Assembly: GCA_021286765.1 (NCBI GenBank) | Contig: JAJTBS010000003.1 | Location: 124,001 to 188,000 of the forward strand | Reading direction: 5' to 3' | Length of the DNA: 64,000 bases | From: Holophagaceae bacterium | GTDB taxonomy: Bacteria > Acidobacteriota > Holophagae > Holophagales > Holophagaceae | Shown here: positions 38,797 to 43,269 of the stretch, piece after piece | Layout: each line of letters starts with the position of its first letter | Numbering within the stretch: the first letter of the stretch is position 1 | The notes under the pieces: model-generated | Told to the model about the DNA's origin: nothing | The model's input: the letters and a program-made list of their open reading frames with translations, nothing else | The model's database searches: none | Position numbers and translations under genes: made by a program

Positions 38797-39225
38797 TCAG
38801 GCGCTGGTCTGTTCAATGCCATCTCGAATGGCCGAGGTGAGTACCTGGAGGTCGACCTCCTTCAGGGATTTGAAGTGGATGCAATAACCGCTGATCCTGG
38901 CCCGGCCGAGCGCCTTGCCGTAGGTCCGGGCCAGATGGGTCTTATCTTTCAGCCCGAGAACATAGACGGAAATTCCGGTGGTGTTCGCGCTGATGCCGAT
39001 CTGGTAGAAGTCCCGACGGCTGCCCTTGCCCTGCCCGAGGACCTGGAATCCGTATCCAATATTTGGATTGGAAATGACCTTCCCCGTCTCGTCCTTGCCA
39101 TCAAGGAACCACAACCTGCAGTCCGGCATCAACTCAAGCATGAGGCCATGCAGCGCCTGCATATCCCTGCGCTTCGCCTCCGGCTGGAGGGCCAAGTAGG
39201 CGTGAATCTGGTCCTGGATGGTCAT
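38797..39225 (-). CDS. DUF1801 protein, possible fixed integron cassette
   Basis: 142-aa DUF1801 protein (MQALHGLMLELMPDCRLWFLDGKDETG, YCIHFKSLKEVDLQVL). It starts about ten bases beyond a truncated attC on the cassette side of the integron, and its composition is less GC-rich than the chromosome. I see no attC downstream of it, so it may be a cassette that lost its recombination site, or a resident gene at the array end. Confidence 0.75.
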   Translation of the reverse strand: MTIQDQIHAYLALQPEAKRRDMQALHGLMLELMPDCRLWFLDGKDETGKVISNPNIGYGFQVLGQGKGSRRDFYQIGISANTTGISVYVLGLKDKTHLARTYGKALGRARISGYCIHFKSLKEVDLQVLTSAIRDGIEQTSA

Positions 39226-39235
39226 GTCAATCCGC

Positions 39236-39335
39236 AGCGCCTATACCGAGGCAATGAGTGGAGCCGGAGAAGTGAGAAGGTGAGCGAGAACGGAAGGCGA
39301 GGCAGGCGGGGTCCGACTTGAGCGGAGGGTTAGGC
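39236..39335 (-). repeat. truncated attC site (attC4)
   Basis: Aligns with the inner part and the GCCTAAC end of the three complete attC sites (GTTAGGC on the plus strand at 39329-39335), but the opposite end with the recombining GTTAGGC on the cassette strand is missing. It should be inactive for integration and marks the distal, frozen end of the array. Confidence 0.8.
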
Positions 39336-39347
39336 CGTAAGTGTCGA

Positions 39348-39863
39348 TCACTTGAGTGGGATACTACTTAAATCTTCGGGCCTGTAAACGTAAGTGTTTG
39401 GCTCCGGGTTTTGATCTGTAGCTAACATTCCAACAACAACGACAACAGGTTGGCCACCCGGTCCCTTTTTCCCTGCTTGGTTAGCAGGATTGCAGGCTGC
39501 AGTGTGCTGATGAGGAGCGGCCTTTGGTTTGGAGCACGAATTATTGGAAAGCGCTATAGCCAGAATGGCGGCCGTTGTTGCGGCGGAATGAATCAGTCGC
39601 CTGGATACAACTCTTCTGCCCTCTAGGCTGCAGTCTGAAGTGATGATCCTGCCATCAGTGCGCTGCCAAAAGCGTACACACAATCTCCCTTCTCTATTTT
39701 GAACGAGCTTAAGTGCTTCCTGGCTCGTCATGCCAGAGAGGTTGTAGACATTCATCTGGCAGTGTTCGCAGTACCGGACGAGTTCATCACCGGCCATTGA
39801 CTCCCAGCTCTTTGGACATGGAGCTTCAATTCTCAGAAAATCGAGCCCCATTGTCTTCGGCAT
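39348..39863 (-). CDS. integron cassette protein, Cys-rich N-terminal domain and lipoprotein-like segment
   Basis: 171 aa encoded by cassette 4. The N-terminal domain (CPKSWESMAGDELVRYCEHCQMNVYNLSGMT..., EGRLCVRFWQRTDGRIITSDC) is a conserved cysteine-containing module known from several large-genome phyla, function unknown. A hydrophobic helix (AATTAAILAIALSNNSCS) and a proline-rich tail follow. Base composition is clearly lower in GC than the chromosome. Confidence 0.78.
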   Translation of the reverse strand: MPKTMGLDFLRIEAPCPKSWESMAGDELVRYCEHCQMNVYNLSGMTSQEALKLVQNREGRLCVRFWQRTDGRIITSDCSLEGRRVVSRRLIHSAATTAAILAIALSNNSCSKPKAAPHQHTAACNPANQAGKKGPGGQPVVVVVGMLATDQNPEPNTYVYRPEDLSSIPLK

Positions 39864-39888
39864 TTAGACTCTCCTCTTGGATGCTGAG

Positions 39889-40012
39889 GCCTAACGAAAG
39901 AAGCTAAGCGGCCACGCCTGCACCGAGGCGATGAACGGAGCCGGGATAGCGAAATGTTGAGAGAGAGCGAGAGGCAATGCAGGCGGGGTCCGACTTGAGC
40001 GGAGGGTTAGGT
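39889..40012 (-). repeat. attC3, complete 124-bp integron recombination site
   Basis: Begins and ends with inverse core sequences (GCCTAAC at 39889-39895; GTTAGGT at 40006-40012) and is almost identical to attC1 and attC2. It lies immediately 3' of the L,D-transpeptidase cassette gene. Confidence 0.9.
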
Positions 40013-40021
40013 GTGCTGGGC

Positions 40022-40540
40022 TCATGGCTTGATTTGAACCCGTGTTCCGTTTGGAGCGATCCGCCACAATTCTTCGATTTCTGGGTTGGTGACCGCGATA
40101 CAGCCGCGAGTCCAATCGGACTTGGTGTGCAAGCTGCCGAGCCAACCGAAGCCATTCTTAATTCCGTGAATCATGATTGCCCCACCTGGTTGGTAACCGC
40201 CAGCCTTGGCTCTTGCGATATCTGAGGGCCTTGGATAGGAGATGTGGAGGGCACGATGGTAGCCACTCTTTTCGAGGCGGCTATCGATGATGAAATCGCC
40301 TTCAGGAGTGCGATTGTCACCTTCGCGTTCTTTTGCCCCGACGGGAGAGCGGCCAAGCGCGACTTGATAGGTACGGAGGATTTTGCCGTTGGAAAAGGCG
40401 GTGAGAACCCTATTCGCCTTCTCGACTACGAGTAAATCCGCTCTTGTGCCTGCGGGAAGCGGTGAAGAGGCAAAGGCATTCAATCCAGAGGCCAGGAGCA
40501 AGGCCACAGCGAGAAGGATTGACCCCTGTTGATTTCTCAT
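40022..40540 (-). CDS. L,D-transpeptidase (YkuD) cassette gene
   Basis: 172 aa encoded by cassette 3. Signal peptide (SILLAVALLLASGLNAFAS) and a YkuD catalytic domain with HGIKNG and the cysteine motif TRGCIAV (Ser of the usual SxGCxR replaced by Thr-Arg). It forms or exchanges meso-diaminopimelate-type cross-links or attaches proteins to peptidoglycan in the periplasm. ATG at 40540 is preferred over the GTG at 40552 that touches attC2. Confidence 0.88.
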   Translation of the reverse strand: MRNQQGSILLAVALLLASGLNAFASSPLPAGTRADLLVVEKANRVLTAFSNGKILRTYQVALGRSPVGAKEREGDNRTPEGDFIIDSRLEKSGYHRALHISYPRPSDIARAKAGGYQPGGAIMIHGIKNGFGWLGSLHTKSDWTRGCIAVTNPEIEELWRIAPNGTRVQIKP

Positions 40541-40552
40541 GATGGGTAGCAC

Positions 40553-40676
40553 ACCTAACGAATGAAGCTAAGCGGCCACGCCTGCACCGAGACGATGAGC
40601 GGAGCCGAGGTGGCGAAATAATGAGAGAGAGCGGAACGCAATGCAGGCGGGGTCCGACTTGAGCGAGAGGTTAGGC
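40553..40676 (-). repeat. attC2, complete 124-bp integron recombination site
   Basis: Core ends ACCTAAC (40553-40559) and GTTAGGC (40670-40676) with the same internal sequence as attC1 and attC3. 3' of the cassette-2 gene. Confidence 0.9.
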
Positions 40677-40686
40677 ATGAGAGCGG

Positions 40687-41178
40687 TCATTTGTCTGGTG
40701 AACTTGGAGGGGGCTCGTATCGATTGATAGCAACTTCCCCTTTGACTGGAAATCGAAGATCAAGACGCCCAAGAAGCTTTGGCTCGTTGGGTGCCGATGG
40801 CAAAAGTGTATTGGGAATGAACTCGAAGTCATATTCACCTGGCTTGAGGCCAGTTAGGACGTAATTAATTGTGAAGAAACAATTACAACCAGCGTACCCA
40901 GTGAGCAGCGGTTCCTCGCGGATAGTGACCTTGTTGCCAGTGGCTTCAACCTTGAATGTGTACCCTGTCGTAGCGCAGTTCGAGTAGAGATTCTGCCTTT
41001 CAATTTGGAGAGATCGGCCATCGAAGGAATAGCGCATTGTCTCCCGTGGAGAGGTTGGGCGCTCTGTACAAGGGGTCATATTCAGAAAATTGCACAGGAT
41101 TTTCGAATCTGCTGAAAAGGCGGGCATTCCTGGAATCAAACAAAGCACCAATCCACTTGTTTTGAAGTAGGAATACAT
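40687..41178 (-). CDS. secreted cassette protein of unknown function
   Basis: 163 aa encoded by cassette 2. Signal peptide (MYSYFKTSGLVLCLIPGMPAFSA), then a beta-rich domain with several cysteines (FLNMTPCTER, SNCATTGYTF, GYAGCNCFF) that could form disulfides in the periplasm, and GLKPGEYDFEFIPN. No family recognised. Confidence 0.72.
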   Translation of the reverse strand: MYSYFKTSGLVLCLIPGMPAFSADSKILCNFLNMTPCTERPTSPRETMRYSFDGRSLQIERQNLYSNCATTGYTFKVEATGNKVTIREEPLLTGYAGCNCFFTINYVLTGLKPGEYDFEFIPNTLLPSAPNEPKLLGRLDLRFPVKGEVAINRYEPPPSSPDK

Positions 41179-41203
41179 GAATGTTCCTTCTCTGGTGGGC
41201 AAT

Positions 41204-41327
41204 GCCTAACGAATGAAGCTAAGCGGCCACGCCTGCACCGAGACGATGAGCGGAGCCGAGATAGCGAAATGCTGAGAGGGATTGGAAGGCAATGCAGGCG
41301 GGGTCCGACTTGAGCGGAGGGTTAGGC
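41204..41327 (-). repeat. attC1, complete 124-bp integron recombination site
   Basis: Core ends GCCTAAC (41204-41210) and GTTAGGC (41321-41327). Partial internal complementarity typical of attC folding. 3' of the first cassette gene. Confidence 0.9.
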
Positions 41328-41336
41328 AAGCCATGA

Positions 41337-41783
41337 TCAATGCTTGAGGTTTATTGGACGGAACAACACGATGACAGCTTTGGATCGCCAACTACGGGTT
41401 AGATAACTGGTGCCAACATGGACTGCTTGGCCATTTGTACTGGCAATGTTCCAGTCTTGGCTGCCCCCGGCAGAAATCGAGTAATCAATCATTTTCGGAG
41501 TATTGGGTATCTGGAATGACATCTTTGTCCGAATGTCGAGCCGGAATTTCGGTGATGAGAACGACACGCTGCATTTCTCGAGTGATTCGAGCCATCCGTG
41601 TACTTCGCTGAGGTCTTCGAGTTCAGAGGAAGGCAAAGCATTCAAGCCGTCTTCGGATTTCGCTGAAGCAGGAAGTCGTTCTGATTTGATTACGAAGTAC
41701 TCGAATGCGAGCTGATCCGCCCAGGCCGATGGAGAGGCCATGAGTATGAGAGCAAGGAGGGCTGGACGAGGTGATCTGCTCAT
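41337..41783 (-). CDS. secreted cassette protein, first cassette
   Basis: 148 aa with signal peptide MSRSPRPALLALILMASPSAWA and a mature part of mixed alpha/beta character (FEYFVIKSERLPASAKSED..., KMSFQIPNTPKMIDYSI). Not recognised. The ATG lies six bases inside the attI-side core, so it would be the first gene expressed from a cassette promoter. Confidence 0.7.
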   Translation of the reverse strand: MSRSPRPALLALILMASPSAWADQLAFEYFVIKSERLPASAKSEDGLNALPSSELEDLSEVHGWLESLEKCSVSFSSPKFRLDIRTKMSFQIPNTPKMIDYSISAGGSQDWNIASTNGQAVHVGTSYLTRSWRSKAVIVLFRPINLKH

Positions 41784-41788
41784 TGGTT

Positions 41789-41795
41789 GCCTAAC
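41789..41795 (-). promoter_or_regulatory. attI-side recombination core
   Basis: GTTAGGC on the minus strand (GCCTAAC on plus) exactly at the junction between the first cassette and the intI leader. This matches the G/TTRRRY crossover site; the attI region should extend to about 41860. Confidence 0.75.
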
Positions 41796-41810
41796 TAGTA
41801 ATTGGACGAC

Positions 41811-41830
41811 GGGGTGGGGGTGGGGTGGGG
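41811..41830 (+). other. G-quadruplex motif in the attI region
   Basis: Four uninterrupted G-runs (4, 5, 4 and 4 G) separated by single T loops on the plus strand. Further G-runs follow up to 41881. Single-nucleotide loops predict a very stable parallel quadruplex. It lies 16 bases from the recombination core, on the template strand for cassette transcription. Confidence 0.85.
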
Positions 41831-41904
41831 TTCGTCTATTCGGGGGAGCGGGGGTATGTGGTTGGGTTCGGTTGGTGGGGGGATAGGCGAACGGTGGATG
41901 GGGG

Positions 41905-41932
41905 TTGACAGGCGAAAAAAAAGCGATAGATT
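41905..41932 (+). promoter_or_regulatory. candidate promoter of the integrase gene
   Basis: TTGACA (41905-41910), 16 bases, then TAGATT (41927-41932), on an A-rich background, pointing towards intI. Good -35 match; the -10 is moderate. Confidence 0.5.
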
Positions 41933-42015
41933 GTTGTATCCCGGAGAGATAAAGATGGCTGGGGGCGTCCTGAGTTTACTGCAATGGGCGAACTGCTTGG
42001 GTGGGGCGACGGGAC

Positions 42016-43029
42016 ATGCTGAACCTGAATAGGCAGACCGGTGACGGGCGGACGGAAGGGGCTCCATCGACCCCGCCCCGGTTGTTCGACCTGGTGCGGG
42101 AGGCCATCCGGATCCGGCACTACAGCCTGCGGACCGAGGATGCCTACGTGGACTGGGCGCGCCGTTTCATCCTCTTCCACGGGAAGCGACACCCGCGGGA
42201 GCTGGGCGCGCCGGAGGTGCAGGCCTTCCTCTCCCACCTGGCCGTGGACCGGCAGGTGGCGGCCTCCACTCAGAACCAGGCGAAGGCCGCCCTGATCTTC
42301 CTCTACAAGGAGGTGCTGGCCGTGGACCTGCCCTGGCTGGCGGAGGTGGTGCACGCCAAGCGGCAGCCGCGGCTGCCGGTGGTGCTGACGCCCGCGGAGG
42401 TGCGCGTGCTCCTGGATCAGATGGAGGGCGTGATGGGCCTGGTGGCGCGGCTGCTCTACGGCACGGGCATGCGGCTGATGGAGGTGCTCCGGCTGCGGGT
42501 GAAGGATCTGGATTTCGCGGGGCGGGAGCTGGTGGTCCGCGAGGGGAAGGGGGGCAAGGACCGGATGACGGTGCTGCCCGCCAGCCTGGTGGCCCCGCTG
42601 CGCGTGCACCTGGAGCAGGTGCGCGCCCTGCACGCTGCGGACCTGGCCGAGGGCTTCGGCGAGGTGATGCTGCCCGATGCCCTGGCCTCGAAGTATCCGG
42701 GCGCCGCGCGGCAGTGGGGGTGGCAGTGGGTCTTTCCGTCGACCCTGCGCTCGGTGGATCCGCGCTCGGGGGCGGTCCGTCGGCACCACCTGCACGCGGA
42801 GAGCGTGCAGAAGGCCGTACGGCTGGCCGCCCGCGCCGGCGAGCTGGCCAAGCCGGTGACGCCGCACGTGCTGCGGCACAGCTTCGCCACGCACCTGCTG
42901 GGGGCGGGGCATGACATCCGCACCGTGCAGGAGCTGCTGGGGCACGCGGATGTGGAGACGACCATGATCTACACCCATGTGCTGAACCGGGGAGGCCGGG
43001 GCGTGCTGAGCCCCCTCGACGGGCTGTGA
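42016..43029 (+). CDS. intI: integron integrase IntI
   Basis: 337-aa tyrosine recombinase. N-terminal SAM-like domain ([26 protein letters not shown]), catalytic domain with [49 protein letters not shown]. The extra [20 protein letters not shown] segment between catalytic patches is the IntI-specific insertion that separates it from XerC/XerD. It diverges from the cassette array, as in all integrons. The ATG at 42016 is chosen; a GTG at 42001 is possible. Confidence 0.95.
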
Positions 43030-43041
43030 GGGAACCGCCCG

Positions 43042-43079
43042 CCCGCCCGCCGGGCGGGATGGGGGCCGCGGCGGCCCCC
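43042..43079 (+). terminator. paired GC-rich hairpins after intI
   Basis: Two adjacent inverted repeats (CCCGCCCG/CGGGCGGG at 43042-43058 and GGGGGCCG/CGGCCCCC at 43061-43079) directly downstream of the integrase stop, without a T-run. Confidence 0.5.
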
Positions 43080-43122
43080 TGACAGGTCGGCCCCAGGTCC
43101 AGATCCTCACGGACCGCGAGGG

Positions 43123-43269
43123 GTCATCGACCTCCCGGACGCAGGCCCGGGCTTCCCCGAGGAGGACGAGGCGCCTTCGAGTGGTTCCGGCACCGCTCCG
43201 CCCGGCTTACCGCCGGGGAGGGCGGCACGGGCCTGGGGCGCGCCACCGTCCGCATCCACCTGGGGTGGG
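43123..43269 (+). pseudogene. frameshifted histidine-kinase ATPase (HATPase_c) remnant
   Basis: One frame reads VIDLPDAGPGFPEEDEA. After a +1 shift near 43173 the next reads AFEWFRHRSARLTAGEGGTG then LGRATVRIHL. Together they match the G1 box (DxGPGxPEED), the F box and the G2 box (GGTGLGLA) of sensor kinases. No start, no upstream domains; a decayed fragment of about 50 codons in the gap after intI. Confidence 0.5.

Follow-up and report, generated by a model that had tools for sequence, protein, structure and literature searches.

Related attI regions share a G-rich spacer across the lineage, and the four G-runs beside the attI site of the integron studied here are best regarded as the form that it takes in one species. 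The best overall explanation, which we hold tentatively, is that they are the local form of a Holophagaceae-specific integron feature. Selection would act on base composition, a part of the explanation that we consider quite likely, and the quadruplex would here be a by-product. The chain of box-like motifs, the conserved composition, its restriction to one lineage and the absence of conservation specific to the G-quadruplex (G4) motif are all apparent from the sequences themselves.

Organization of the integron

The window (the whole 64-kb stretch of DNA that was analysed) contains an integrase gene, an attI site, recognized as such in the sequence-only reading, and a cassette array (Table 1). 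The product of intI matched TIGR02249 with 467 bits (cut-off 265) and was assigned to the integron integrases. The attC array, left of attI, consists of four repeats of 144 nt that end in GCCTAAC...GTTAGGC and have ORFs between them. The attI core is the same as the attC repeat ends and is invariant across the aligned attI regions. A second integron integrase is encoded in the same genome (G000:C7:169433-170398; L010). It is 68 % identical and its upstream region is not G-rich.

Table 1 Features of the integron and its attI region (positions in the window)
Feature	Position	Strand	Sequence and remarks
Fourth attC repeat	39212..39355 (repeat coordinates)	-	Repeat family D1, 68 % identical
Third attC repeat	39889..40032 (repeat coordinates)	-	Repeat family D1
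attC, second cassette	40553..40676	-	Sequence and repeat family D1
attC, first cassette	41204..41327	-	Repeat family D1; ends read in sequence
First-cassette ORF	41337..41783	-	ORF list
attI core (R box)	41789..41795	-	GCCTAAC on +, GTTAGGC on -; cassette insertion point
L box	41802..41808	+	TTGGACG; kept 5-6 nt after core in relatives
G-rich spacer 1 (G4 motif)	41811..41830	+	GGGGTGGGGGTGGGGTGGGG, read directly as GGGG T GGGGG T GGGG T GGGG; four G-runs, single-T loops; the window's only four-tract short-loop G4
DR1	41830..41838	-	GTTCGTCTA; putative integrase box, inverted; kept about 41 nt from core
G-rich spacer 2	41839..41881	+	Further G-runs; G-rich in relatives though hardly alignable
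DR2	41883..41892	+	ATAGGCGAAC; putative integrase box, inverted partner of DR1; conserved
intI promoter	41905..41932	+	TTGACA-16-TAGATT with conserved GGCGAAAAAAAAGCGATA spacer; conserved in relatives
DR3	41983..41993	+	AATGGGCGAAC; conserved in relatives
DR4	42028..42041	+	AATAGGCAGACCGG; within intI start; also kept at sites without intI
Integron integrase intI	42016..43029	+	ATG start; ORF opens at GTG 42001; TIGR02249

Box-like repeats are conserved in the relatives; they are candidates for accessory integrase sites of the attI1 kind. DR1 and DR2 change jointly in several relatives (GTACGC/GCGTAC). DR4 is probably a DNA element, because it is kept where intI is missing. In sequence, the Holophagaceae attI is a string of motifs that look like integrase boxes (core, L and DR1 to DR4). 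The promoter near the G-runs is directed into intI; the cassette promoter that had been proposed beside them was not found at this place. Within the spacer of the intI promoter, an A-tract is flanked by the two halves of a conserved direct repeat (GCGA-N7-GCGA), which may be an operator. The motif was also considered as a genome-wide operator and a second copy was not found in the genome.

G-run motif and strand asymmetry

Four G-runs with single-T loops, followed by more G-runs, had been noted beside the attI core, and this was confirmed, with 15 nt between the core and the first run. The claim that they lie on the template strand for cassettes also holds, as the cassette ORFs and attC sites are on the - strand and the G-runs on the + strand. 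Four tracts of at least four G, joined by loops of a single nucleotide, are expected to be stably folded in K+. The motif is G4-capable by sequence and would probably form a quadruplex in vitro.

When the window was searched for four tracts of this kind with loops of 1-3 nt, one match was observed, whereas a first-order Markov model based on the window predicts 0.08. Looser G4 motifs are about as frequent as chance predicts for the GC-rich DNA of the window, both canonical G3+N1-7 motifs (21 seen, 24.5 ± 5 expected) and three-tract G4+ matches (8 seen, 9.75 expected). The strand asymmetry is the real outlier of the region and a stronger statement than the G4 count: within the 64 kb, an absolute G-C of at least 0.4 per 80 nt is reached only in stretches starting at 41796-41851.

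The three-tract short-loop pattern was found at about 39 distinct places in the genome, two of which fall in attI sites, that of the window and an integrase-less one (G000:C4:635179). About 0.001 was expected, a value calculated with 43 places that changes little with 39. Other short-loop places (C4:887015, C6:628173 and C8:214809) were inspected as candidate attI sites; none was seen there, only gene-like sequence or a gene end. Rfam gave no match within 39000-43200. A coding origin of the G block was also rejected: the overlapping - strand ORF (41795-42067) was judged to be a chance ORF, because the indels of the relatives are, by inspection, not multiples of three.

Conservation of the spacer among relatives

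The attI-intI regions of the relatives' integrase loci were retrieved and aligned. The core, L box, DR1, DR2, intI promoter, DR3 and DR4 occur in conserved order and at roughly conserved spacing. Between the L box and the intI promoter, the spacers are hardly alignable, yet always G-rich and C-poor (G 0.44-0.63, C 0.05-0.21) in the 25 attI sites that are followed by the conserved intI promoter. Absence of the G-runs from orthologous attI regions, which the sequence-only reading had named as evidence against its proposal, was not seen; G-richness is conserved in the related regions.

In 29 loci of Holophagaceae, a few of them one locus from two collections, the maximal G-C per 80 nt was 0.38-0.57; outside the family, values above 0.25 were rare. 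Low values inside the family were obtained for L066 (0.28), L067 (0.24), L071 (0.26) and the second intI of the genome, L010 (0.07). Other loci, mostly of Proteobacteria, were nearly always below 0.3, with L161, L207 and L216 ignored because their match is at a contig end and the coordinates were mis-set. Since the Holophagaceae loci are high and the others nearly always low, we consider the G-rich spacer to be lineage-bound. The 58 other Acidobacteriota loci had a mean of 0.17 without strand preference. Among them, independent G-rich attI regions were looked for, and only L089 (G090:C73), from another Acidobacteriota family, was comparable. It has G-rich sequence and repeated GTTAGGCGGAA boxes, similar to those described here, before intI.

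In three genomes, a second attI-like element that is not G-rich was observed 214-215 nt array-side of the main attI (L023, at 1286 and 1500 on the - strand; L024; L025), two of them spaced alike in G046. It is possibly an ORF-less cassette-like unit.

Quadruplex or base composition

Under the quadruplex reading, the G-runs would stall RNA polymerase on the cassette template, leave the C-rich strand single-stranded or place the integrase. Such a functional DNA quadruplex on the + strand could draw on the predicted stability of the motif, its uniqueness in the window and the short-loop G-tracts in both attI-like sites of the genome. The relatives argue against it, and we regard it as improbable. 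In the nearest one (integrase 93 % identical), the corresponding sequence is GGGGTGGGGGTGGGGTGGAG and the fourth tract is broken (GGAG). Of the 25 relatives, just 5 have a four-tetrad motif, and in two of these the loops are 1-2 nt long.

Canonical G3+N1-7 motifs were found in 56 % of the 25 spacers, compared with 57 % of base shuffles and 76 % of dinucleotide shuffles. Tracts of four or more G were somewhat commoner than in base-shuffled spacers, a modest point in favour of the quadruplex (5.8 observed, 4.0 in base shuffles and 4.9 in dinucleotide shuffles). Substitution was compared in attI pairs of at least 74 % identity, which overlap and hence are not independent. G differed at 13.9 % inside runs and at 13.4 % outside them, so G in runs is under no extra constraint. 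A, C and T differed at 32-41 % in the same pairs; only the comparison of run with non-run G was used, because G-rich composition itself partly lowers the G rate.

Conservation of the G4 motif beyond composition was therefore not found: the broken fourth tract, the shuffle frequencies and the equal rates inside and outside runs indicate that G content is kept and not the arrangement of tracts. The quadruplex as a selected feature is thus weakened, and the G-rich strand may still form various quadruplexes.

attI-like sites without integrase

With a sequence model that covers the initial 53 nt of attI, matches were obtained in 27 of 47 Geothrix genomes. The 64 stronger matches comprised 26 near intI and 38 without a nearby intI (in 18 of the 47 genomes); the model was built partly from integrase-less sites and hence favours them, and some of the 38 are near contig ends, where intI could be missing. 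Almost no matches were obtained with the reversed pattern as control. Genomes of one or two contigs have four (G032), five (G044) and six (G002) sites, but each has just one intI of this integrase family.

At many integrase-less sites, attC follows directly on the array side. Several also have a second conserved module, GTAAGTGTTGA...ACCGTGG...AATAGGCAGACC (L002 at 1501; L072-L077), which was not seen at the aligned integrase-linked sites. Two pairs, L002/L074 and L076/L077, apparently share the same neighbouring gene in different species (judged by eye), which suggests inheritance in place. The integrase may act in trans on these sites.

The integrase-less sites of the same genomes, which also head arrays, are lower in G-C (mean 0.20, against 0.44 at integrase-linked sites). 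This bears on the reading of the spacer as a neutral relic without function, either G-rich sequence left from an ancestor or the product of mutational bias at this place. Its confinement to one family and its absence from the second intI of the genome would fit a relic. However, the composition persists though the spacers are barely alignable across species, the integrase-less sites of the same genomes are lower, and C-to-T deamination alone is insufficient for 55 % G. We therefore consider a relic to be improbable too.

Possible roles of the spacer

The spacers that separate L, DR1, DR2 and the intI promoter from one another keep about 55 % G and 12 % C on the strand that codes for intI. In the preferred explanation, based on this conserved composition, transcription in the cassette direction would give a leader of about 90 nt that is rich in C, poor in G and without structure, and its Rho-binding composition might gate or tune transcription into the first cassettes. 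Rho sites are described as RNA stretches of at least 70-80 nt with much C, little G and no structure (PMC6407284). Read as RNA in the cassette direction, the spacer (21 % A, 55 % C, 12 % G and 12 % U, with little predicted folding) agrees with them in composition, length and predicted folding. A leader that resembles a Rho utilization (rut) site is our leading mechanism, but only a possible one; in a plainer variant, the leader would merely be non-folding.

The start of the cassette transcript of V. cholerae lies 65 bp upstream of attI, overlapping the intI promoter (PMC3948777). A cassette promoter was not found here, which counts against the leader, and weak -10-like matches alone recur about 180 nt from the core; with the arrangement in other integrons, they may indicate a cassette promoter on the intI side. 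The lower G-richness of integrase-less sites that head arrays also counts against the leader, as a pure cassette-leader role would not predict it.

Alternatively, the spacers could serve as DNA in the integrase complex, where a linker rich in G and free of hairpins would separate the inverted boxes (L from DR1 and DR1 from DR2) and would keep attI double-stranded or bind a host factor. The spacers lie exactly between conserved boxes, L-to-DR1 spacing is nearly fixed, integrase-less sites keep the boxes, and the richest spacers are those of integrase-linked sites. On the other hand, some family members (L028, L036) have an extended hairpin-like spacer 1 instead, and binding of the boxes by the integrase is putative. 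This linker is likewise possible but rather unlikely, and carries almost as much weight as the leader mechanism.

Comparison with known systems

Class 1 attI1 likewise has a core, an L box and integrase-box-like repeats on the intI side (R/L boxes and direct repeats DR1 and DR2; PMC8946536, PMC4792948). In the sites studied here, four putative extra boxes, some inverted, are spread over about 250 nt that reach into intI and are separated by G-rich spacers. The attIA/Pc region of V. cholerae shares an intI divergent from the cassettes and an intI promoter adjoining attI; there Pc has been mapped and no G-rich spacer is described (PMC3948777), whereas the Geothrix-type site has one. The RNA that the spacer would give resembles rut sites (PMC6407284) in being C-rich, G-poor and poorly folding over about 80-90 nt, with composition kept and not sequence. 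The Geothrix genomes also contain integrase-less attC arrays comparable to CALIN, attC clusters without integrase (PMC12444791), and some of these arrays are apparently at conserved chromosomal places; many of them, however, are headed by an attI-like site.

The sequence-only reading knew of no integron with a quadruplex, and our search of a collection of papers on integrons with G-quadruplex, Rho or orphan attI agrees: it returned nothing relevant, including on the combination of attI and G-quadruplex, and no paper treating Geothrix integrons as such. A composition-conserved attI spacer in one family, together with repeated attI sites, seems to be new.

A broader and more doubtful proposal is a distributed, Geothrix-type system, in which one integrase would serve several chromosomal attI sites, many heading their own attC arrays. 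The G-rich spacer would be a new module that marks the integrase-linked attI, and cassette expression would be under its control, either by a rut-like effect of its composition or by a quadruplex. Control of cassette capture and expression by attI and its promoters is little studied in chromosomal integrons outside Proteobacteria, and these sites offer a handle on two questions: does the composition of the leader gate expression of the cassettes, and are several arrays fed by a single integrase?
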